Assembly (NCBI GenBank): GCA_025062155.1
Contig: JANXAM010000016.1
Coordinates: 1 to 39,345, forward strand
DNA from: Gloeomargarita sp. SKYB120
GTDB lineage: Bacteria > Cyanobacteriota > Cyanobacteriia > Gloeomargaritales > Gloeomargaritaceae
Direction of reading: 5' to 3'
DNA: 39,345 nucleotides
A model generated the notes under the pieces. That model saw nothing but the letters and a program-made list of their open reading frames with translations, had not been told where the DNA came from and searched no databases. Of this stretch, positions 6,441-18,211 are shown in pieces (within the stretch, counting starts at the first letter, position 1; each line of letters opens with the position of its first letter). A program made the position numbers and the translations under genes.

Positions 6441-8152
6441 AAATCGTCGTCGGTTTCCGAAGGGGTGGGGTCTATGACTTCCCCGTTGAAAAAGTCCGCT
6501 AACCGCTGGGCGGCCACCCGTACTTGGTCGGTGGGGATGGCCATCGGCGGGCTGGGCTGTGGTGGAGATGCAGGCTCAGCCGCTGGCGGGGGTTGGGATT
6601 CCTTCGCAGGGGTCACGGCTATGGCGGGCGGTTTCGGGGGGGGAGTCACCAATTTCACCGCAACCGGTTTGTGTAACACCCGTTTGAAGGCTGCCTGCAA
6701 GTCCTTGACTTTCCCTTCGGCGATTTTGAGCAAGGGTTCGGGATGAACGGCCACTTGCGCCTGGGTGTCGTTGAGTGCCACTAGCTGCCCGTTTTGTTCA
6801 AACAAGGCCCGCGTTGCTTTGAGACGAATTTCGGCCACCACCTGCGACCACAGGGCGGCGAGATCAACTGTCTCTCCAGAAGCAGGTGGCACTTGCGTCG
6901 GGGGGGGAGTCTCTCTCTCCCTGGCAATGACTGGTTCGGAAGGCGGTTCTTGGGGGGCAGGGGCAACTGGTTCCGGCGCAGAACTCGGTGTCCTATCACC
7001 AGGAGAGGTCGGTCGTGCGACGCGTGGATGCAAGGGAACGACTTTGGGAGACTCTGCCTGGCCTTGAGCTTGCTGCCACCACCCTAGCAGAATGACTTCC
7101 AGCCAGAGATGGGGTTGCGTCGTTTGCCGGAGTTGGGGTTCGCTTTGCCGGAGATACTCTTGCGCCTGTAGGAGTGCGTTCACTCCCACCCGTTGTCCCC
7201 AGTCGCGCAGTGCTTGCCAGGTGTCGGTCATCAGGTTGGTCAACTGGGGTTGCTCCGGTGCGGCGCAGGCAATTAACGCATCCCGCACAAATCCCACTAA
7301 CTGCTGGTACAGGGGCAACGGTTCCCACCCCCTTTCAATCAAGGCCCGTCCCCGTTCCAGCACGGTTACCAGTGATTCCTGATAGACGGCCTGCACCAGG
7401 TCGAACAACTCCCGCTCCGGCACCCGTCCGGCCAACTGCCACACCTGTTCAGGGTGAATTGGCTGCGGCAACAAGCTCAACTGATCCAACAGGCTTTCGG
7501 CGTCCCGCATCCCCCCTTGGGCCAGTTGCGTCACCACCAGCAGCGCTTCAGGCGTAATGTCAATTCCTTCCAGGTGGGCAATCTGCTGCAAATGGGCTTG
7601 CATCACTGCGGGGGGAATCCGCCGGAAATCGAACCGTTGACAGCGGGAAATAATGGTGGCCGGTACGCGCTGAGGGTCGGTTGTGGCCAGGACAAACACC
7701 ACCCGTTCCGGGGGTTCTTCCAGCGTTTTCAACAGGGCATTGAACGCCGCCCCCGACAGCATGTGGCACTCGTCAATGATGAACACCTTGTACCGCGCCT
7801 GAACAGGAGCCAATTGCGCCCGTTCAATCATCTCCCGCACATTGTCCACGCCGGTGTGGCTAGCGGCGTCAATCTCGATGATGTCCAGCGCATTCCCCTG
7901 GCTAATGGCTTGGCACAGGACGCACACGCCACAGGGTTCCGGCGTCGGGACCTCACTGCTGAGGCAATTGAGGGCCTTGGCAAGAATGCGAGCCGATGAC
8001 GTTTTCCCCGTCCCCCGCGGCCCCGTAAACAAATAGGCCGGCGCAATCCGACCCGTGCGAATCGCGTTCGTCAGCGTGGTGCGAATCACATCCTGGCCCA
8101 CCAGTTGCCCAAAGGTCTGGGGGCGATATTTGTGGTGCAGGGGAATATACAC
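6437..8152 (-). CDS. dnaX: DNA polymerase III subunits gamma/tau
   Basis: This is the AAA+ motor subunit of the clamp loader. The 571-residue protein has the cyanobacterial N-terminus LHHKYRPQTF, a Walker A GPRGTGKTS near residue 45, a four-cysteine zinc module (first Cys near 63, then CGVCVLC near 74-80), a Walker B IIDECHML near 125 and the sensor/arginine-finger stretch ISRCQRF near 165. The C-terminal third is proline-rich and then resembles a tau-like domain. The start is GTG 8152; an in-frame TAA lies two codons upstream, so no earlier start exists. No intein interrupts the ATPase domain, although dnaX inteins are common in cyanobacteria. I did not find a convincing A-rich slippery site for making a short gamma form. 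Confidence 0.96.
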   Translation of the reverse strand: MYIPLHHKYRPQTFGQLVGQDVIRTTLTNAIRTGRIAPAYLFTGPRGTGKTSSARILAKALNCLSSEVPTPEPCGVCVLCQAISQGNALDIIEIDAASHTGVDNVREMIERAQLAPVQARYKVFIIDECHMLSGAAFNALLKTLEEPPERVVFVLATTDPQRVPATIISRCQRFDFRRIPPAVMQAHLQQIAHLEGIDITPEALLVVTQLAQGGMRDAESLLDQLSLLPQPIHPEQVWQLAGRVPERELFDLVQAVYQESLVTVLERGRALIERGWEPLPLYQQLVGFVRDALIACAAPEQPQLTNLMTDTWQALRDWGQRVGVNALLQAQEYLRQSEPQLRQTTQPHLWLEVILLGWWQQAQGQAESPKVVPLHPRVARPTSPGDRTPSSAPEPVAPAPQEPPSEPVIARERETPPPTQVPPASGETVDLAALWSQVVAEIRLKATRALFEQNGQLVALNDTQAQVAVHPEPLLKIAEGKVKDLQAAFKRVLHKPVAVKLVTPPPKPPAIAVTPAKESQPPPAAEPASPPQPSPPMAIPTDQVRVAAQRLADFFNGEVIDPTPSETDDDF

Positions 8153-8189
8153 AGCCAGTTAGGAGCCGACCCGTCTTTACTCCAGTATC

Positions 8190-9134
8190 TCAAGGCCGGG
8201 ATTCTACTGACACTGGCACAGGTACCGGTGCAGGTTCCGCTACAGGCGCTGGCTGTGCAGGTTGCAAACGATGCCGCTGGTTAATCACCGTGATACTCAC
8301 CAGGGTCAGCAGCACCCCCGCCCACTGCCAGGCCGTCAGGCTCTCTCCTAGGAACCAGGCGCCAAAGGTCAAGGCAAACACCGGCGTCAAAAACGTCAGC
8401 GCACTCAGGCTCGTGAGGTTTCCTTTGGCCGCCAGATAGAAAAACAACCCATAGGATGCCGCACTGCCCAATACTGTTGTATATGCCAGTCCCAACCAAT
8501 CCCACTGGCTCAAATGCTGCCACACTGGCCCTTCCTGCACCACCGACAGCGCCAGCAGCGGTACGCCCCCTAGCACCATATGCCAACCCGTCGCCACCAA
8601 GGGGTCAGCCCAGCGGCTCAACCAGCGCATCATCACCGTGCCCACCGCCATCGCCAGCGCCGCCAGCAGCATCCACCACTCCCCGTGTCCCCACAGGTTA
8701 AACCCATGCAGCCATTCTTCCGGCGATAGGGCAATCATGCCAATCCCGGTGATCCCCAGCGCCAAGCCGAGCCAGCCCCACAGCCCAATCACTTCCCCAT
8801 ACAACCACCAGGCCAGCAATGCTACCGCCAACGGCTGGGAGTCAATCATCACAGAGCCAAGGCCCGCTTGGGTGCGCGTCAGACCCGTCACCAAAAACCC
8901 TTGAAACAACGTGCCATCCACCAGGGCAAACAGTAAGATGCCCAGCCACGCCCGCCAGGTACGGGGTTGTGGCCGACCCAATGCCAGCGCTGCCGCCAAC
9001 ACCAACAAACCTGCCGGAATCAGCCGAAATGCTCCGACAAACCAGGGTCCCGTCGCCGGCAAGACCGCCTTCATCACGATCATTGCCGTGCCCCAGAAGA
9101 AAAATGGACTAATTAGCCCTAAGAAACGCAGCAT
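8190..9134 (-). CDS. DMT superfamily (EamA) permease
   Basis: This is a 314-residue hydrophobic protein with about ten predicted membrane helices in two five-helix repeats, the usual EamA layout. Typical features include FFFWGTAMIVMKA at the N-terminus, RLIPAGLLVL, and the second-repeat end LTPVFALTFGAWFLGESLT. EamA members export amino acids, nucleosides or other small metabolites, but the substrate cannot be read from sequence. The C-terminal 25 residues are a Pro/Ala/Val-rich tail. The start is ATG 9134, with an AGGAAA-like site about 12 bases upstream. It is divergent from the cobalt-transport operon, sharing a 250-base control region with it, and lies 37 bases upstream of dnaX on the same strand. 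Confidence 0.9.
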   Translation of the reverse strand: MLRFLGLISPFFFWGTAMIVMKAVLPATGPWFVGAFRLIPAGLLVLAAALALGRPQPRTWRAWLGILLFALVDGTLFQGFLVTGLTRTQAGLGSVMIDSQPLAVALLAWWLYGEVIGLWGWLGLALGITGIGMIALSPEEWLHGFNLWGHGEWWMLLAALAMAVGTVMMRWLSRWADPLVATGWHMVLGGVPLLALSVVQEGPVWQHLSQWDWLGLAYTTVLGSAASYGLFFYLAAKGNLTSLSALTFLTPVFALTFGAWFLGESLTAWQWAGVLLTLVSITVINQRHRLQPAQPAPVAEPAPVPVPVSVESRP

Positions 9135-9175
9135 GGCTTTAAGTCTTTTTTCCTATGGTAACGCAATGTGAATTT

Positions 9176-9205
9176 TTGCAAATAGGTTGGGGAGATGCTT
9201 TATAG
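9176..9205 (+). promoter_or_regulatory. Probable sigma70 promoter of the cobalt-transport operon
   Basis: TTGCAA at 9176-9181 is followed, after 17-18 bases, by TTTATA/TTATAG at 9199-9205. This would place the transcript start near 9212, about 23 bases before the first paired base of the riboswitch. The assignment rests on motif and spacing only. Confidence 0.5.
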
Positions 9206-9234
9206 GGGGAATGGCGGTGGTATGGTAGGGGATA

Positions 9235-9354
9235 CGTCGGTTCTGGTGGGGGCCAGCCATCAGACGCAAGGGGGAAAGTGCAGTGTGAATCTGCCGCTGT
9301 CCCGCAACTGTGATGAAGGCGCTACCGCTTTCTCAGTCAGGATGCCCGCCGACG
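9235..9354 (+). promoter_or_regulatory. Cobalamin riboswitch
   Basis: The region carries the conserved parts of the adenosylcobalamin aptamer in order: GGTTCTGGTG near 9239, GGGGGAAAGTGCAG near 9270, the core CCGCTGTCCCGCAACTGTGA near 9293-9312, and the B12 box AGTCAGGATGCCCGCC at 9335-9350. CGTCGG (9235-9240) pairs perfectly with CCGACG (9349-9354) to give closing helix P1. A second hairpin, CCCG (9345-9348) with CGGG (9353-9356), competes with P1 and uses the end of the B12 box, so it could be the ligand-free switch. The cbiM ribosome binding site is about 20 bases further on and no T-run follows, which favours translational over transcriptional control (inference). Confidence 0.93.
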
Positions 9355-9387
9355 GGATGTCACCAACAAGTCTGCGAGGTACGGACG

Positions 9388-10152
9388 ATGTTGCGCCAAT
9401 CAACAGGTTTTCGCTTAGCGCTAGGCGCTGGCCTAGGTTTGAGTCTTGCGCTCACCCACGCGCTACCAGCCCAGGCGATGCACATTGCCGAAGGATTTTT
9501 GCCGCCGGGGTGGGTGGTGTTTTGGTGGGTGGTGTTTTTGCCGTTTTTCCTGTGGGGGTTGCGTTCCTTAGGCCAAGTGACCCAACGCGCGCCCGAGACA
9601 AAATTGCTGCTGGCGTTGGCGGGGGCTTTTACGTTTGTCCTATCGGCCTTGAAAATTCCATCCGTGACCGGGAGCTGCTCGCATCCGACGGGTACGGGGT
9701 TAGGGGCGATGCTGTTTGGCCCTAGCGTCATGACGGTGTTGGGCGGGCTAGTGCTTTTGTTTCAGGCGTTACTCCTAGCGCATGGAGGACTCACCACCTT
9801 GGGCGCTAACGGATTTTCCATGGCGGTTGTAGGGCCGTGGGTGGCCTATGCCGTTTTTCATCTCCTGTGGCGAGTAACCCGACGCCAGGGAATCGCCGTA
9901 TTTGCAGCAGCAGCCTTGGCGGATTTGACGACCTATGTGGTGACGTCGGTGCAGTTGGCTTTGGCCTTCCCAGCGCCGGTGGGGGGATTCGGGGCGGCCT
10001 TTGCCAAATTCGCCACGCTGTTTGCTGTCACCCAAATTCCCCTGGCAATTAGCGAAGGACTCTTGACGGTGCTGGTGTGGAACTGGCTACAAACCTACAG
10101 TCGTACGGAGTTAACGGCATTGAACCTGGTGCGGGAAGGAGCGTCGTCGTGA
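9388..10152 (+). CDS. cbiM: Cobalt ECF transporter substrate-binding protein CbiM
   Basis: This is the membrane component that binds Co2+ in the energy-coupling-factor cobalt transporter. ATG 9388 is chosen because GAGGT lies 7 bases upstream and the riboswitch ends just before. The protein is then 254 residues. It starts with a signal-peptide-like segment ending AQA, directly before MHIAEGFLP, the usual extreme N-terminus of CbiM/NikM. Cleavage there would recreate the Met-His metal site. A second conserved His lies in SCSHPTGTG. About seven membrane helices follow. The riboswitch and the cbiN, cbiQ and cbiO neighbours support cobalt rather than nickel as substrate. The stop overlaps the cbiN start by one base (TGATG). 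Confidence 0.96.
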
Positions 10153-10457
10153 TGGCGAATACACCGAAAAGCGCACCCTGGTGGGGAAATGTGCTGTTGC
10201 TTGGCGGCGTGATTCTGCTGGCGCTGCTCCCGCTGCTAGTTGTCCGCGACGCCGAGTTTGAGGGGGTGGATGCCCAGGCGCCAGAAGTGGTTAAAGAACT
10301 CCAGCCGAATTACGAACCCTGGGTGCAACCGCTATTTGAACCGGCCAGCGGGGAAATCGAATCGCTGTTATTTGCGGTGCAGGCGGGGTTAGGTGCTGGG
10401 GTGATGGGCTACGTGTTGGGGCGCTACCACGGTCGAACCGACCAACGGCGTGAATAG
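10152..10457 (+). CDS. cbiN: Cobalt ECF transporter accessory protein CbiN
   Basis: This is a small two-helix membrane protein of 101 residues that helps CbiM capture cobalt. It has an N-terminal helix near residues 12-32, an outside loop with GVDAQAPEVVKELQPNYEPW, then the highly typical PASGEIESLLFAVQAGLGAG leading into the second helix. ATG 10152 overlaps the cbiM stop, so translation is probably coupled. An in-frame ATG further upstream lies inside cbiM and was rejected. The charged C-terminus follows the second helix directly. cbiQ begins 3 bases after the stop. Confidence 0.95.
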   Translation: MANTPKSAPWWGNVLLLGGVILLALLPLLVVRDAEFEGVDAQAPEVVKELQPNYEPWVQPLFEPASGEIESLLFAVQAGLGAGVMGYVLGRYHGRTDQRRE

Positions 10458-10460
10458 ACC

Positions 10461-11252
10461 GTGCATCACCACCTGGATAGCTATGCCTATCGCAACGGCC
10501 TGCGGTATCTGCCCCCGTCCTACAAGTTAGGGTTTGCCCTGGGGTTGCTGATTCTGGCGCTCATGGCTCAACCGCTGACACAGGCGCTGCTGGCGCTCTG
10601 GCTCAGTCTCTGGACAGTAGGATATGCCCGGATTCCGGCGCGGGTTTATGCAGCTTGGTTAGGGATAATGCTGCTGTTCTGGGCGTTGAGCCTGCCAGCG
10701 CTGGTGATCCAGGTCGTTCCCACGCCGCCCTTGCGACCTGATGTCCTGTGGGGAACGGACGTGTTCGGTAGCTGGCATGTATTCCTAAGCCGCAGGGGGT
10801 TGCACCTGGGATGGACGACGGGGTTACGTTCTCTCGCTTGCAGCAGTTGTCTATTGTTTGTCCTGCTGACAACTCCCTTTGCCGACCTGTTGCGGGTGTT
10901 TCGCCGCTGGCACGTTTCCCCTTTGTTGCTGGACTTGCTACTGCTGATGTACCGCTTGATTTTTCTGCTGCTGGATGAAGCGCTCACCATGCATGTGGCG
11001 CAACGGGCGCGGGGCGGTTATCGCAACTGGCGACGGGGATTGCAGAGTTTGGCGTTACTCACGGGACAACTCTGGCTGCGGACATTGCACCGTTATGAGC
11101 AATTGACGCTGGGGTTAGCTGCGCGGGGCTGGCAAGGCCAATGGCGGGTGGAGCTACCAGCAACCTATCATCTGCCCCGGCGTTACGCCATCGAAGCAGT
11201 AGGGGGCGGGCTAGGGTTACTGGTGCTGGAATGGAGTGTACGGTCATCTTAG
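10461..11252 (+). CDS. cbiQ: Cobalt ECF transporter coupling protein CbiQ
   Basis: This is the transmembrane coupling (T) component, linking the CbiM/CbiN unit to the CbiO ATPases. The 263-residue protein has several membrane helices followed by the amphipathic coupling region, with the two Ala-Arg-Gly signatures of T components visible as QRARGGYRN near residue 182 and LAARGWQG near 222. Those arginines normally dock into grooves of the ATPase dimer. The start is GTG 10461, three bases after cbiN. There is no sign of truncation. Unlike the tight cbiM-cbiN-cbiQ spacing, cbiO lies 138 bases downstream. Confidence 0.94.
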   Translation: MHHHLDSYAYRNGLRYLPPSYKLGFALGLLILALMAQPLTQALLALWLSLWTVGYARIPARVYAAWLGIMLLFWALSLPALVIQVVPTPPLRPDVLWGTDVFGSWHVFLSRRGLHLGWTTGLRSLACSSCLLFVLLTTPFADLLRVFRRWHVSPLLLDLLLLMYRLIFLLLDEALTMHVAQRARGGYRNWRRGLQSLALLTGQLWLRTLHRYEQLTLGLAARGWQGQWRVELPATYHLPRRYAIEAVGGGLGLLVLEWSVRSS

Positions 11253-11255
11253 ACT

Positions 11256-11366
11256 GGAACTGAGTGACCTACTAAAGACGATGAAAGTTTAGACGTGCAG
11301 TGCCCCCTAGCGTTGCTCTATGAAAATGTGGAACTTCCCCCTGAACCAATGCCCTGACCCAGTTCC
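11256..11366 (+). repeat. Inverted-repeat-bounded spacer between cbiQ and cbiO
   Basis: GGAACTGAGT at 11256-11265 is matched by ACCCAGTTCC at 11357-11366, an inverted repeat with 9 of 10 positions paired. The 111-base segment contains no credible gene and all frames are broken by stops. It separates cbiQ from cbiO in an otherwise gap-free operon. It may be a small non-autonomous insertion, or simply a long-range RNA stem; the sequence does not decide. Confidence 0.35.
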
Positions 11367-11390
11367 CTGTTTTGCATGTGAGTTCAACCT

Positions 11391-12212
11391 GTGGGTCTAG
11401 CGTTTCACCGAGTCAGTTACACCTATCCCAGCGCCACCCAACCAGCAGTGGTGGAATTAGACTTGACCATGCCAGCGGGTTACAAAACGGTGATTTTGGG
11501 GCGCAATGGGTGTGGTAAATCGACGGCGTTACTCCTAGCAGCGGGGCTGTATCGGGGGTATCGCGGCGTGATTACCTGGCGCGGGGAACGGTTGCAGCAT
11601 CACTGGCCTTGGCGCCAACGCATCGGGCTTACCTTCCAAGACCCGGAACACCAGTTGGTCGGCGCAACGGTTGCCGAAGATATTGCCTACGGGTTGAGCA
11701 ATCTGTCCCTATCCCGCTCTGAAATTGCCAAACGCTTGTCTCAAATTTTGGCGGATTTTGATTTAGAGGCGCTGGCTGATGTCCCTTTGCATCACCTGAG
11801 CTTGGGGCAAAAACGGCGAGTGGCGCTGGCGGGAGTCATGGCGTTACAGCCGGAGTTGTTGCTGCTGGATGAACCGACGACTTACCTAGACCACGAGCAA
11901 ACTCAAACTCTCCTGCATCTGCTGCACCGGATTCACAGCCAAGGGACAACGGTGGTGATGGCGACCCACGACCTGGATTTGGCCTACGCCTGGGCCGATT
12001 GGGTGGTGTGGCTCGACCAGGGGCGGGTGATAGTTGCTGACTGGGCTGAGCGGGTTTGGATGAATAGCGAATTGCTCGCGCAACTGGGGACACCGACATT
12101 GTGGGCCGCCTGGCACGCGCTACCAACCGCCTGGCGAGATGGGAAGGCAGCACCTAAAACGCTCAGTGCATGGCAGCATTACTGGCAAGAACGGAGCCAG
12201 CAGTTCGGGTAA
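11391..12212 (+). CDS. cbiO: Cobalt ECF transporter ATP-binding protein CbiO
   Basis: This is the ATPase of the cobalt ECF transporter, expected to work as a homodimer because only one ATPase gene is present. Over 273 residues it shows Walker A GRNGCGKST near residue 37, the Q-loop FQDPEHQLVG, the ABC signature LSLGQKRRVALAG near 136, Walker B LLLLDEPTTYLD near 158 and the H-loop ATHDLD near 191. The start is GTG 11391; the ATG upstream at 11376 is followed at once by a stop. No strong ribosome binding site precedes it, so its expression relative to cbiMNQ is uncertain. It converges on the coiled-coil genes with a 9-base gap. Confidence 0.94.
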   Translation: MGLAFHRVSYTYPSATQPAVVELDLTMPAGYKTVILGRNGCGKSTALLLAAGLYRGYRGVITWRGERLQHHWPWRQRIGLTFQDPEHQLVGATVAEDIAYGLSNLSLSRSEIAKRLSQILADFDLEALADVPLHHLSLGQKRRVALAGVMALQPELLLLDEPTTYLDHEQTQTLLHLLHRIHSQGTTVVMATHDLDLAYAWADWVVWLDQGRVIVADWAERVWMNSELLAQLGTPTLWAAWHALPTAWRDGKAAPKTLSAWQHYWQERSQQFG

Positions 12213-12221
12213 CTCCTGAAA

Positions 12222-12455
12222 TCACTCTGTATCCTGCCGGCCATTGGGGTAGTTCCGAGTGAGAATAGCCAGCAATTGACGAATATCGGCGTGGATATTG
12301 CGAGTATCCTGGCGTAGCTCTTCAATGCGGTTCTCCTGGCGCTGGATTACCTGCATCATCAATGCTTGACCTTCCCGTAGCTCCCGAATGGCAGCGGCAT
12401 TTGCTTGTACTTGTTCAGCCAAGCGGTCCAGCATTTCATCCGTCCAACGAGCCAT
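12222..12455 (-). CDS. Small coiled-coil protein, shortest of three tandem paralogues
   Basis: This 77-residue soluble protein is almost entirely predicted coiled coil. It begins MARWTDEMLDRLAEQVQAN, has a single 14-residue unit (VQANAAAIRELREG), then the shared C-terminal block with QALMMQVIQRQENRIEEL and the conserved end LLAILTRNYPNGRQD. There is no signal peptide, cysteine or catalytic motif. A GGAG site lies about 10 bases upstream of ATG 12455. It is the last gene of the triplet, 27 bases after the middle copy. Similar short coiled-coil proteins occur in many copies in cyanobacteria, but I know of no function. Expression with the other two as an operon is likely. Confidence 0.75.
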   Translation of the reverse strand: MARWTDEMLDRLAEQVQANAAAIRELREGQALMMQVIQRQENRIEELRQDTRNIHADIRQLLAILTRNYPNGRQDTE

Positions 12456-12482
12456 AGCTTGTACTCCAAAGGGGGACTTTAT

Positions 12483-12821
12483 TTACTCTACATCCTGCCG
12501 GCCATTGGGGTAGTTTCGAGTGAGAATAGCCAGCAATTGACGAATATCGGCGTGGATATTGCGAGTGTCTTGACGTAACTCTTCAATGCGGTTTTCCTGG
12601 CGCTGGATTACTTGCATCATGAGTGCTTGCGCTTCTCGTAGCTCTTGAACAGATACACGCAACTCTCGAATCGCTTCCGCATTGGCGGCGACTTGGACTT
12701 CCAAACGATGGATGGCTTCCGCGTTCGCTTCGACTTTGGCTTCCAAGCGGTTAATCGCTTCAGTATTCGCTTGCACCTGGTCAGCGAGACGGTCCAACAT
12801 CTCATCAGTCCAACGCGCCAT
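12483..12821 (-). CDS. Small coiled-coil protein, longest of three tandem paralogues
   Basis: At 112 residues, this is the same fold as its neighbours: an identical start (MARWTDEMLDRLADQVQAN) and an almost identical C-terminal block ending NGRQDVE. It differs in length in the middle. It has three consecutive 14-residue units of pattern VxANxEAIxRLExx, plus an extra heptad (VSVQELR) before the shared block. The start is taken as ATG 12821, with a GGAG about 8 bases upstream; a GTG three codons earlier overlaps that site. Function is unknown. The changing number of repeat units between paralogues suggests that coiled-coil length or partner choice is what varies. Confidence 0.75.
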   Translation of the reverse strand: MARWTDEMLDRLADQVQANTEAINRLEAKVEANAEAIHRLEVQVAANAEAIRELRVSVQELREAQALMMQVIQRQENRIEELRQDTRNIHADIRQLLAILTRNYPNGRQDVE

Positions 12822-12848
12822 CGCCTGCACTCCAAAAGGGAACTTTAT

Positions 12849-13166
12849 TTACTCTACATCCTGCCGGCCATTGGGGTAGTTCCGAGTGAGAATAGCCAGC
12901 AATTGACGAATATCGGCGTGGATATTACGGGTGTCTTGACGTAATTCTTCAATGCGATTTTCCTGGCGCTGGATTACCTGCATCATCAATGCTTGAGCTT
13001 CCCGCAGCTCGCGAATGGCTTCCGCATTGGCGGCGACCTGGGCTTCCAAGCGATGGATGGCTTCCGCATTCGCTTCGACTTTAGCTTCCAAGCGGTTGAT
13101 AGCTTCGATATTCGCTTGCACTTGGTCAGCGAGACGGCCTAGCGTTGCATCAGTCCAACGCGCCAT
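12849..13166 (-). CDS. Small coiled-coil protein, first of three tandem paralogues
   Basis: This 105-residue protein is the promoter-proximal copy of the triplet. It has MARWTDATLGRLADQVQAN, three 14-residue units (VQANIEAINRLEAK, VEANAEAIHRLEAQ, VAANAEAIRELREA) and then the shared C-terminal block. ATG 13166 has a good AGGAG site 8 bases upstream. Its upstream sequence differs from the two intergenic spacers downstream, which resemble each other; this fits growth of the cluster by tandem duplication of a gene-plus-spacer unit. No membrane segment or known enzymatic motif is seen. Oligomerisation, perhaps hetero-oligomerisation among the three, is the only role the sequence supports. Confidence 0.75.
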   Translation of the reverse strand: MARWTDATLGRLADQVQANIEAINRLEAKVEANAEAIHRLEAQVAANAEAIRELREAQALMMQVIQRQENRIEELRQDTRNIHADIRQLLAILTRNYPNGRQDVE

Positions 13167-13304
13167 CGCCTGCTCCTAATGAGGGACTAGTCTCAGTTTA
13201 ACTGGCGGCCTTGACCTAATTTGCACCCATCTCGATTTCACGATTAGGATAACCAACAGTGTTGCTGATAGAATCGAGAGTTGTTTCGCCCAGGATGAAC
13301 AGCA

Positions 13305-14024
13305 ATGGGGCATCGGCGGGGGTGGATATGGTTCGGGCTGGGTTTTCTAGTATCAATAGTTATTGTCATTTCGACTGCCTACGCTTGGAACCAGTGGGGC
13401 TTACCAAAACCATCTACGCAACCGTCTGTTATCACCCCTGCGACACCCACACCCATGCCGACACCCGCCAACTCGACAGTCGTGACTAAATACGGTCATT
13501 TCCCCTATGCAGAAATTAGCCGGGACCGCTTGATTGTCGTGGCTAGTTATGGTCGCAAAGAATATCAACGTTACGTCGAAATGGAGCGGGAAGCCGGTCT
13601 AGCGCTCTTTCGGCTGATCAATGCAGCGCGGGATGAAGGTCTGTGGATTATTCCCATCTCCGGGTTTCGTACCGTGGACTACCAAGCGCAACTATTCAAC
13701 CGGCAAGTCCAGAAGCAAGGCTCAGAAGCAGCCGCTGCCCGGATCAGTGCGCCCCCTGGCTATAGCGAACACCACACGGGGTTAGCGATTGACTTGGGCG
13801 ATGGGTTCGCAGCTGGCGAGGGCATACCGGATATTACGGAACGTTTTGGGCAAACCCGCGCCTACCAATGGCTGCAAAAAAACGCGAAAGATTACGGCTT
13901 TGAACTGTCGTTTCCCCCGAATAATCCCCAAGGCGTGATGTACGAACCCTGGCACTGGCGCTACGTGGGTTCAGAATACGCCCGCCAAGTGTTCGCCGCC
14001 GCCCGCCGTGGCCCGGTTGGTTAG
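13305..14024 (+). CDS. VanY-family D-alanyl-D-alanine carboxypeptidase, membrane-anchored
   Basis: This is a zinc peptidase predicted to trim the terminal D-Ala of peptidoglycan stem peptides outside the membrane. Of 239 residues, the first 30 hold one hydrophobic segment (signal anchor), followed by a Pro/Thr-rich linker to about residue 60. The catalytic domain shows ISGFRTVDYQAQLF near 118 and the zinc motif SxHxxGxAxD as SEHHTGLAID near 154-163. The third ligand is the His in EPWHWRYVG near 213. All expected metal ligands are present. The start ATG 13305 has a weak AGGA site. The stop overlaps that of the convergent thioredoxin gene (shared TTAG). Confidence 0.92.
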   Translation: MGHRRGWIWFGLGFLVSIVIVISTAYAWNQWGLPKPSTQPSVITPATPTPMPTPANSTVVTKYGHFPYAEISRDRLIVVASYGRKEYQRYVEMEREAGLALFRLINAARDEGLWIIPISGFRTVDYQAQLFNRQVQKQGSEAAAARISAPPGYSEHHTGLAIDLGDGFAAGEGIPDITERFGQTRAYQWLQKNAKDYGFELSFPPNNPQGVMYEPWHWRYVGSEYARQVFAAARRGPVG

Positions 14025-14374
14025 GTCAAGGGCGTGACGGAGGGAGTCGCCAAAAGCTCCTGGACAGCCAGTTGGAGTTGCTGGTACAGTTGATCCCGGC
14101 TCTGAAAGGTCTCCCAGCGCCGCCAGACTTGGCCGTTTTGGACTAACAGAAGCGTTGGGAGCATCCGCAGCCGGTAGCGGCTGGCCAGTTGCAAACTACT
14201 GTCGGCGTTGATGGCCACGACTCGGAGATGGTCACTATACTGCTTTTGTAGTTGTAGTAGCAGGGGCTCAACCAGGCGACACAACCCGCACCAGGGAGCG
14301 AAAAAGTGCACAATTGTGGGTACGGGCGAGCACAAAACTTCCTGGTCAAAATGCGTTTCTGAAATCCGTTTCAC
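14021..14374 (-). CDS. Thioredoxin-family protein with WCGLC active site
   Basis: This is a 117-residue single thioredoxin domain without a signal peptide, so cytoplasmic. The redox motif is APWCGLC with cysteines at 29 and 32, where the canonical proline is leucine. The cis-proline loop MLPTLLLVQNG lies near residue 72, and the strand VVAINADSS precedes it as expected. The Pro-to-Leu change alters redox potential and partner choice in studied thioredoxins, so this is probably not the main housekeeping one (inference). The start is GTG 14374 with AGGA about 10 bases upstream. It is divergent from acs across 183 bases. Confidence 0.9.
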   Translation of the reverse strand: MKRISETHFDQEVLCSPVPTIVHFFAPWCGLCRLVEPLLLQLQKQYSDHLRVVAINADSSLQLASRYRLRMLPTLLLVQNGQVWRRWETFQSRDQLYQQLQLAVQELLATPSVTPLT

Positions 14375-14557
14375 AGGCGTAATTCCTAAGGGACGTTTAT
14401 TAAACTGCTTTCATCATAACAGGTTGGGGATCACCGTGGTAGGGTCTGGGATCAGCAAAAATGCAAAAATTTCTCAAACTGATTTGGTCAGGCCAAGGAC
14501 GGTAACCACTTGCCCAGTGCGATACCATAATCTCCAGGCGCATTGGGGACAAGGGCA

Positions 14558-16522
14558 ATGACGGAAGCCTTGATTGAATCTGTACTGCATGAACAACGGC
14601 GATTTTTTCCCCCAGAGCCGTTTCGCGCCCGCGCCCGCATCGCGTCGTTGGAACAGTACCAGCAGTTGTGCGACCAGTTTGCCCAAGACCCCCAAGGCTT
14701 TTGGGCTGGCCTGGCGGAGCGGGAATTGCACTGGTTTCGGCGCTGGGAACAGGTTTTGGATTGGCAACCCCCCAAAGCGCGCTGGTTTGTCGGTGGTCAA
14801 ATTAACCTGTCCTACAACTGCCTAGACCGGCACCTGACAACCCCCCGGCGCACCAAACCGGCGATTGTCTGGCAAGGCGAACCCGGAGAGGTGCGGGTCA
14901 TTACGTATGAACAACTGCATCAAGCGGTGTGCCGCTGGGCAAACGCGCTCAAACAGTTGGGCGTGCAACCCGGCGACCGAGTAGGGATTTATATGCCCAT
15001 GATTCCCGAGGCGGCTATGGCGATGCTGGCTTGCACCCGGATTGGGGCGGCCCATACGGTGGTGTTTGGGGGATTTAGCGCCGAAGCGCTCAAGGAACGG
15101 CTGCGGGCGGCCCAGGCGAAGGTGGTGGTTACCGCGGATGGGGGCTGGCGCAAAGGACAAGTCGTGCCGTTGAAACCCCAGGTGGATGCAGCGCTGGCTG
15201 ATGGTCAGGTGCCGTCGGTCGAACGGGTGGTCGTGGTGCGGCGAGCGGGAGATTGCGCCATGGACGCCCAGCGGGATGTGTGGTGGCACGAACTGGAGAC
15301 GCACCTGTCACCGGATTGCCCGGCAGAACCCCAAGACAGTGAGCAGATGCTCTTTATTCTCTACACGTCCGGCACGACGGGCAAACCCAAGGGCATTGTC
15401 CATACCACGGCGGGCTATAACCTGTACACGCACATGACGGCCCAGTGGGTGTTTGACCTGCAAGAGGACGATGTCTATTGGTGCACCGCGGATGTGGGGT
15501 GGATCACAGGACACAGCTATGTGGTCTATGGGCCGCTGTCGAACGGGGCGACGACGGTCATGTACGAGGGCGCTCCCCATGCGGGTAATCCGGGCTGTTT
15601 TTGGGATGTGATCCAGCAGCACCGGGTGACCATTTTTTACACGGCACCCACGGCAATCCGGGCCTTTATCAAGATGGGAGAGGAGCACCCCCGGGCGCGG
15701 GATTTGTCGTCGTTGCGGCTGCTGGGCACGGTGGGAGAACCGATTAACCCGGAAGCCTGGATGTGGTACTACCGGGTGATTGGGGGCGAACGTTGCCCGA
15801 TTGTGGATACCTGGTGGCAAACGGAAACGGGGGGCATTATGATTGCGCCATTGCCAGGAGCGACCCCTACCAAACCGGGTTCTGCAACGCTGCCGTTACC
15901 GGGCGTGCAGGCCCAAGTGGTGGACCGCCAAGGAAATCCAGTGGCCGTGAATCAAGGGGGGTACCTGGTGATTACCCATCCGTGGCCGGGGATGATGCGC
16001 ACGGTCTATCAGGATGAGGAGCGGTTCCGGCGCACGTACTGGGAGCAAATTCCCCCGCGCGATGGCCAGTATTTCTACTTCGCTGGGGATGGAGCGCGCC
16101 GCGATGAGGACGGCTATTTCTGGATCATGGGCCGGGTGGATGATGTGATTAACGTGGCGGGGCATCGCCTGGGGACGATGGAAATCGAATCGGCGCTGGT
16201 TTCCCATCCAGCAGTGGCGGAAGCAGCAGTGGTGGGCCGTCCCGACGAACTCAAGGGGGAAGCGGTGGTGGCGTTTGTAATTCTAGAGAGTCACTACCAG
16301 CCCAGTGATGCGCTGAAACAGGAGTTGCTCGACCACGTGGTGCAGCAAATCGGCGCGATTGCCCGGCCTAGCGACCTGAAATTTACCGACGCCCTGCCCA
16401 AAACCCGCTCCGGGAAGATCATGCGGCGATTGTTGCGGGCCATTGCAGCGGGTCAAGCACCCACGGGCGATATGTCCACCCTGGACGACCGGAACGTGCT
16501 AGAAGCCCTACGCGAGACGTGA
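14558..16522 (+). CDS. acs: Acetyl-coenzyme A synthetase
   Basis: This enzyme makes acetyl-CoA from acetate, CoA and ATP through acetyl-AMP. The ORF opens at TTG 14543, but ATG 14558 fits better: GGGGAC lies about 8 bases upstream and the protein then begins [19 protein letters not shown], giving 654 residues. The adenylate-forming signature [11 protein letters not shown] lies near residue 270, WWQTETGG near 415, and [15 protein letters not shown] near 525. The C-terminal [11 protein letters not shown] near 610 carries the lysine that is acetylated in regulated homologues. The gene appears intact. Its 3' end overlaps the convergent mraY by 15 bases. Confidence 0.96.
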
Positions 16523-17584
16523 ACCGAGCAACCAGCCGCCCCACAGCAGCGCTTCAATCCCCCAAAACAGGGCCACAATCTGCGTTTCCGTCCAGCCGCT
16601 CAGTTCCAGGTGGTGATGATAAGGGGTCATCTTGAACAACCGTTTACCCACCCCATCCGGCCCCTTGGTCGCCTTGAAATACCACACCTGGGCCATCACC
16701 GTCACGGTTTCCCAGACAAATAACAGGCTGAGGACGAGCAATAACCATAGATGCTGGGTCACGATTCCAATGCCGGCCAAGGCGCCCCCCAGCGCTAAAG
16801 AACCCGTATCCCCCATAAACACCCGCGCTGGATGGTGGTTATGCACCAAAAAACCCAAACAAGCCCCTGCTAAAGCGATGGCGAACACACTCACATCGGG
16901 ATGGGTTGTCGCACAGGCCACGCCCAAACCCGTCAAGGCCACGGCACAGGTGCCCGCCGCTAAACCGTCTAAGCCATCGGTTAAATTCACGGCATTGCTC
17001 TGGGCCACTGGCACAAACCCCACCAGTACCCAAAACAACAGCCCTAGGTTTAATGTGAGGTTCCAAGGCAGCGCAATGGTCGTCGGGAGGTTGCCTTGCT
17101 GCCAAAGCCATACCGTAAACCCCACCGCCGCCAGGATTTGGAGCGTTAATTTCAGGCGAGGCGCCAGACCTTGATTGGATTGGGTCAGCAGGATCAAAGC
17201 ATCATCAACCGCGCCAATGCCCCCACAGGCCAACGTCAACAAGAGCACCGCCCAGCCATGCGCCGATAGCGTTTGTCCCTGCCAGGCCAGCATCAGCAGC
17301 GTTACCGCCAGGGCGACCGGTAGAAAAAAAATTCCCCCCATCGTGGGCGTTCCGGCTTTTTTCAGATGGGCCTGGGGACCTTCCCGGCGAATCACCTGCC
17401 CCATCTTCAACCGGCGCAACCAGGGCAACGTCACCATGCCCGCCAGCGCTACTCCCCCCGTCGCCAACCCCAGCGTCAGGCACAACACTGGCGCATTCGG
17501 GGCAACCCAGCTCAGGACGCCCAGCAAACCGGCGGCTAGACCCACCACTAACCAAGCGTCTCGTTTGGCAAGCAACGTCGTCAT
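16508..17584 (-). CDS. mraY: MraY, phospho-N-acetylmuramoyl-pentapeptide transferase
   Basis: This enzyme forms lipid I by moving phospho-MurNAc-pentapeptide to undecaprenyl phosphate in the membrane. The 358-residue protein has about ten membrane helices. Motifs present are GTPTMGG near residue 77, AVDDALILL near 124 (the aspartate pair), [16 protein letters not shown] near 200, [13 protein letters not shown] near 253 and the histidine motif [11 protein letters not shown] near 318. The lysine that often follows DDxxK is replaced here, which may be lineage variation. The start is ATG 17584. With murG, two sequential steps of lipid II synthesis sit in this window 10 kb apart, not in one operon. 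Confidence 0.96.
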
Positions 17585-17629
17585 GGGCCGGCGCCGGCAA
17601 GAGATCCCACTTGCATTTTACCCCGGTGG

Positions 17630-17929
17630 TCAGAACTCTTCTTCTTCTTCGTCCAGCAACTCTTCTTCGAGTTCTTCGTCGTCGAACAGGTCGCCTTCGT
17701 CGCCCGTCAGTTCATCCAATCCTTCCCCATCTTCGTCCAACAAGGAACGGTAATCCGACACGGGGCTGGTATCAATCCGACCGATAGACTCCAACCAGTA
17801 GAGGATGGACGCATTGGCCGGGGTGGGAATCACATCCGCTGGCTGGTCAATGGGAATCTCCCGAAGCGTAGGAATGACCAGCGGCGGTTCATCCAGGGGA
17901 TGCAATGCAGAGGATTCGGGTGTGCTCAT
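17630..17929 (-). CDS. Small acidic protein, DUF3134-like
   Basis: This 99-residue protein has the order LREIPIDQPADVIP, a short central motif SILYWLESIGRI near residue 42, and then a very acidic C-terminus in which roughly the last 35 residues are mostly Asp and Glu, ending EEEEEF. The central WLESxGR segment matches my memory of the cyanobacterial family DUF3134, whose function is unknown. The long acidic tail seems more extreme than usual. There is no signal or membrane segment. It lies 45 bases upstream of mraY on the same strand, and may share its transcript. Confidence 0.7.
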   Translation of the reverse strand: MSTPESSALHPLDEPPLVIPTLREIPIDQPADVIPTPANASILYWLESIGRIDTSPVSDYRSLLDEDGEGLDELTGDEGDLFDDEELEEELLDEEEEEF

Positions 17930-17971
17930 GGACGTTTTGACTGAAAGGGCAATAAATCACAATAGCAAAAT

Positions 17972-18211
17972 TCACTGGCGACTGTGTTCAGGACAGGGAA
18001 GCGGCTGCACCGAACGGTCAAGCCACCCTTGGGCCTGGCGCGTATGATGCAACGCCTGTTCGGGCTGGTCATGGAGGAGATAACTTAACGCCGCCGCCAA
18101 TTGTTCTGCCGCCCGTGCTTTGCGGTTGTTTTTGAGGCGATGCCACTGCTCTGGCGTAATGCGCAACCGGTCGCACAAGGCCTGCACCAACTGCCGCGTT
18201 TCGGCGTCCAT
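17972..18211 (-). CDS. Conserved small cyanobacterial protein (DUF6439-like)
   Basis: The protein is 79 residues from ATG 18211; a TTG start six codons upstream is also possible. It is mostly helical, with LCDRLRITPEQWHRLKNNRK followed by AAEQLAAALSYLLHDQPEQA and ending QGWLDRS. This pattern resembles a small cyanobacterial-only family that I believe is DUF6439; the assignment is from memory. There are no cysteine pairs except one near the C-terminus, no membrane segment and no catalytic motif. It is 42 bases upstream of the acidic protein on the same strand, and divergent from the next gene. Confidence 0.65.
   Translation of the reverse strand: MDAETRQLVQALCDRLRITPEQWHRLKNNRKARAAEQLAAALSYLLHDQPEQALHHTRQAQGWLDRSVQPLPCPEHSRQ

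Follow-up and report, generated by a model that had tools for sequence, protein, structure and literature searches.

The window analysed here is a 39,345-nucleotide stretch of Gloeomargarita sp. SKYB120 (contig JANXAM010000016.1), and three tandem ORFs were confirmed in it at 12222-13166. All three are intact and lie on the minus strand, transcribed in the order C, B, A. Gene C (13166-12849, 105 aa) encodes a head, three 14-residue units and a C-block; gene B (12821-12483, 112 aa counted from the start set at MARW) encodes the head, three units, an extra heptad and the C-block; gene A (12455-12222, 77 aa) encodes the head, a single unit and the C-block. Close homologues and dN/dS (0.07-0.12 for C versus B and A) support the three ORFs as genes, and the unit counts of the initial annotation, 1 in A, 3 plus one heptad in B and 3 in C, agree with the sequence. 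The C-B and B-A spacers (12822-12848 and 12456-12482, minus strand, 27 nt each) carry GGAG at 12830-12833 and 12464-12467, and a GGAG-type ribosome-binding site stands ahead of each of the three start codons. Promoter and terminator scans of the array found none; A, B and C are probably co-transcribed. The array is flanked by a cbiO-type ABC gene (ECF Co/Ni transporter), which ends at 12212, and by a VanY-type carboxypeptidase gene, which starts near 13305.

The heads (residues 1-19, all recognised by the head profile A3) map to 13110-13166 in C (MARWTDATLGRLADQVQAN), 12765-12821 in B (MARWTDEMLDRLADQVQAN) and 12399-12455 in A, all on the minus strand. They had been described as the same 19 residues, and they are similar without being identical, since the sequence of C differs from that of B and A has E14. 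The stalks of C and B (residues 16-57 in both, 12996-13121 and 12651-12776, minus strand) consist of three 14-residue (42-bp) units with TRF-detected 42-bp periods, showing V/I at a and N/L at d in C and corresponding a/d layers in B. By unit count and register comparison, the stalk of A (residues 16-29, 12369-12410, minus strand) is the one unit VQANAAAIRELREG. ANxxAI unit starts fall at residue 18 in A and at residues 18, 32 and 46 in B and C. The extra heptad of B (residues 58-64, 12630-12650, minus strand) was delimited in alignment A1 as VQELREA, and could be read as VSVQELR, depending on the cut point. The C-blocks, conserved in the same alignment and almost identical among A, B and C, occupy 12849-13007 in C (LREAQALMM...LTRNYPNGRQDVE), 12483-12641 in B and 12222-12380 in A (minus strand); the C-block of C overlaps the last four residues of its final unit. 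Repeated DNA of 263 nt (87% identical) and 191 nt (85% identical) extends across the spacers, which lie within repeat D1, so gene and spacer were duplicated together, as had been proposed.

The proposed coiled coils were borne out by the a/d hydrophobicity, which was exceeded by 0/5000 shuffles for C, 0/5000 for B and 2/5000 for A. The core heptad register is continuous (a = L V I V I V I Q I I T I L; d = L N L N L N L M Q L I L), and an AlphaFold monomer prediction, made from an alignment of the window proteins with two from a named relative, gave one helix over residues 2-96 at a mean pLDDT of 93.5, followed by a loose tail. Unbroken heptads with Asn at d and a branched residue at a, the sequence criterion for trimers, were found. 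Asn triads at d, often holding chloride, recur in trimeric coiled coils (PMC12933892). Judged from these layers, parallel trimers with Asn buried at every second d position are the most likely assembly; a dimer or tetramer is less likely, though the pairing of I at a and L at d would fit a dimer as well. The strict VxxNTxx motif is not present, because Ala follows Asn more often than Thr (48 versus 28).

No Pfam or NCBIfam family scored above its cut-off for the window proteins. DUF16 (PF01519) gave 25.6 and 21.7 bits for two of them, with none listed for the third (gathering cut-off 40 bits), and ZapB (PF06005) gave at most 25.3 bits (gathering cut-off 31.5 bits). The nearest precedent for variation in heptad number is nevertheless the Mycoplasma pneumoniae DUF16/RepMP1 group, multi-copy coiled-coil paralogues whose lengths shift by 7 or 14 residues as their repeats recombine (PMC3472980). 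That group belongs to another lineage and no RepMP1 core was seen in the window proteins, so the likeness is probably convergent. Trimeric autotransporter adhesins such as SadA share the branched residue at a, the Asn at d and the regular spacing of layers, and there is a weak PDB match to the adhesin fragment 2wpr (E 0.7); the window proteins, however, have no signal peptide, adhesin head domain or membrane anchor, are far smaller, and usually have Ala after Asn. Other PDB matches were generic coiled coils that did not cover the head tryptophan, and homology from that source was rejected. Phage origin was rejected as well, since viral contigs and plasmids yielded no relative and PHROGs nothing for the window proteins; the PADLOC hits, on long ATPases and similar proteins, reflected generic coiled-coil similarity, and Rfam gave no match, so that a defence system and an RNA element were dropped.

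The head motif xRWTDExLDxLA (MARWTDExLDRLA in the window) is not confined to Gloeomargarita. Searched with the 39-position head profile, a sample of 388 cyanobacterial genomes from 160 genera gave matches (E 0.01 or better) in 125 genomes and 62 genera, though the weakest of these matches may be chance; the profile recovers all three window genes. A 24-residue head HMM trained on Gloeomargarita only (first background match at E 0.036) retrieves from other genera soluble coiled-coil proteins as well as proteins with a tail anchor, the latter including three members of NF053525, the ssr2422 thylakoid membrane protein family (E 8e-10 to 4e-8). NF053525 proteins share with the window proteins an N-terminal head (MTQRWTDEMLDKLA versus MARWTDEMLDRLA) followed by a coiled coil, but end in a transmembrane helix that the window proteins lack: the maximal 19-residue hydropathy is 0.23-0.46 in the window proteins versus about 2.05 in ssr2422-type proteins. 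The three tail-anchored proteins named above pass the NF053525 cut-off, whereas the best window protein reaches 12.1 bits (E 0.2), below the curated 38 bits; some NF053525 members are without the head. In Gloeomargarita, ssr2422-type tail-anchored coiled-coil proteins (L165, L176, L166) reach up to 12 matches per genome, and some of their stalks have repeated heptads, with a 14-residue difference between orthologues of sister species (G001 versus G003).

Also close to the window proteins are the uncharacterised cyanobacterial coiled-coil proteins with the RWTDExLD head, which are soluble, often tandem and vary in length by steps of 7, and differ in stalk and C-block sequences. Other genera, too, have tandem pairs whose lengths differ by whole heptads, such as the 85- and 155-aa proteins of one genome. 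The neighbours of head-protein loci vary in other genera, and no curated family was found for these proteins.

The host is placed in Gloeomargarita by close relatives from named Gloeomargarita genomes and from five of six other congeneric genomes. In six of the seven species close homologues occur as arrays; G002, the seventh, has only a decayed relic between VanY and hpsA, recognised by its SRNYPKSRQD tail. A second set in the own genome lies where contig C34 ends and where C32 begins. Arrays stand directly upstream of hpsA, on the same strand, in G000, G001, G003, G004 and G006, and upstream of lgt in G001, G003, G004 and G005; no coiled-coil array was found upstream of hpsA in G005 or upstream of lgt in G000, G002 and G006. 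A distant member adjoins a pilin gene in G004. In the same genome a third subfamily (L154:4694-7453) comprises five tandem head proteins (MAVNRWNDEMLDQLA...) of 73, 87, 101 and 123 aa, one of them partly masked. AnmK neighbours were seen at four sampled loci. DUF29 was dropped as a recurring neighbour, given its seven copies in the own genome and the large distances.

Comparison with the sister genome G006 showed split matches to two contigs (REARRANGEMENT): window positions 6471-12383 match C182 (98.4%) and 13055-18205 match C44 (97.1%), placing a rearrangement breakpoint in 12383-13055, within the array. Relative to G006, two coiled-coil arrays of the window genome have swapped flanks (window 12383-13055 with L053 and L054). 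In G006, and likewise in G002 through the relic, the VanY side runs into hpsA, so the window gene order looks derived; the orientations are consistent with an inversion between two inverted arrays. An assembly chimera was judged unlikely, with exact repeats common to the assembled arrays of at most 35 bp, although several contigs end inside such genes, so that longer unassembled repeats exist and an assembly error is not impossible. Beside the C34 array (L056:10300-11357) lie dispersed repeats of about 100-400 bp that resemble small mobile elements; G000 and G006 contain many copies of them, and some copies are 100% identical. An IS4-family transposase gene (L046:4081-5061) lies just upstream of the subfamily-2 triplet in G003, and a related gene lies near the G001 triplet.

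Length changes in heptad-preserving steps, as the initial annotation had described, were seen in every intact relative. Counted from the head Trp to PNG, the spacing equals 3 mod 7 in 19 of 19 intact subfamily-1 proteins (values 66-234) and 0 mod 7 in eight proteins of subfamily 2. Copies tend to group by genome and array, with some nodes weakly supported. Close relatives differ by the gain or loss of 42- or 84-bp units and of whole genes, and sister species differ in length at both main loci (119/133 versus 245 residues; 112/119 versus 98/98/105); the 245-aa member of G003 contains 168-bp higher-order repeats that are 98% alike. The register is kept while length changes quickly. The single apparent exception is a 4-residue non-heptad deletion in the stop-bearing C34 copy. 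Selection for register is suggested by these sequences and is unproven as such, because the repeat unit equals two heptads and the DNA mechanism alone preserves register.

We consider it somewhat better than an even chance that the array encodes three paralogous rod proteins, probably cytoplasmic, that are self-associating soluble stalks made by unequal crossing-over. Each rod comprises the short head, a coiled-coil stalk in which the number of 14-residue double heptads varies, and the constant C-block with a loose LTRNYPNG tail. The chains would associate with themselves in register, presumably as trimers; unequal crossing-over or slippage between repeats would generate the length variants, and selection would retain the head, the C-block and the heptad register while tolerating a range of lengths. 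Such stalks would join a head-bound partner to a C-block-bound partner, possibly at the cell envelope, a site considered because other arrays adjoin hpsA, lgt and a pilin gene.

A nearly neutral gene family, in which arrays persist and spread by repeat recombination with little function, is the strongest of the rivals, though we give it perhaps one chance in five. Decaying copies in sister genomes had been named in advance as an outcome against the initial reading, and this outcome is seen in part: apart from the G002 relic there are a frameshifted first copy in G006, fragments in G005 and, in the own genome, the stop-bearing copy on C34. Such frequent pseudogenes and relics, the exchange of flanks between arrays and the hpsA and lgt loci without arrays would all suit near-neutrality. 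The window copies, however, are intact and constrained. Over the head plus C-block (68 codons), dN/dS among A, B and C is 0.06-0.12 at dS 0.43-0.70, and it is 0.02-0.12 in most other within-clade comparisons and up to 0.22 between deeper ones, which marks strong purifying selection on both parts. Such values at this divergence (dS 0.4-0.7), together with relatives that persist in 62 of the 160 genera, speak against little function. Copies tend to group by genome and array, with some nodes weakly supported.

Mixed bundles, in which A, B and C would act as hetero-oligomerising adaptors through the common C-block, appear unlikely. The near-identity of the C-blocks and the adjacency of the probably co-transcribed genes would allow them, but aligning unequal chains at their heads puts the C-blocks 7-35 residues out of register, so homo-oligomers are the simpler guess.

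We regard as equally doubtful that the proteins are accessories of HpsA or of a type IV pilin-like surface apparatus, a proposal that draws on the same-strand arrays directly upstream of hpsA in five genomes, the relic in the same place in G002 and the distant member beside the pilin gene. A single ancestral placement could account for these positions, the window array is not near hpsA, neighbours in other genera are varied, and the sister genus G007 has hpsA without the close family. Between the array or relic and hpsA, six Gloeomargarita genomes also have a CRP-like palindrome (GGTGATTCCTATCACA or close; L055:1238, L053:6365, L041:6614, L045:5164, L047:6819 and L073:7761), suggesting cAMP-receptor-type control of hpsA, and because this conserved upstream site stands between array and hpsA, hpsA may be separately transcribed. 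A functional role in surface structures is no more than a lead drawn from neighbourhood.

A broader and more speculative idea, which we hold to be a little less probable still, is an unnamed cyanobacterial stalk-protein kit combining one head motif with a soluble cap or a membrane anchor, in which arrays would make heptad-step lengths and so provide graded homotrimeric spacers at membranes, the hps/pilin machinery being among the partners. The initially proposed molecular ruler, in which each chain length would be functional and fix the distance between two partners, fits three lengths side by side with the register kept, yet is disfavoured and the least probable of these readings, since a register that is kept with a length that is not speaks against a fixed ruler: beyond the sister-species differences, orthologous G000 and G006 copies from nearly identical genomes (region 99.5% identical), with identical head and C-block and equal unit order, differ by a single 84-bp (28-residue) indel (147 versus 175 residues).

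Taken together, the array represents a genuine family of coiled-coil stalk proteins that is under constraint, has evolved through repeats and changes length by heptad steps, as DUF16/RepMP1 does. The head motif is the mark of a widespread group of cyanobacterial proteins that lacks its own curated family, and it connects the soluble rods with tail-anchored proteins of the thylakoid. The arrays offer a natural experiment in changing coiled-coil length with the register retained, and they appear to serve as rearrangement sites in the Gloeomargarita lineage, the cyanobacterial lineage closest to plastids.
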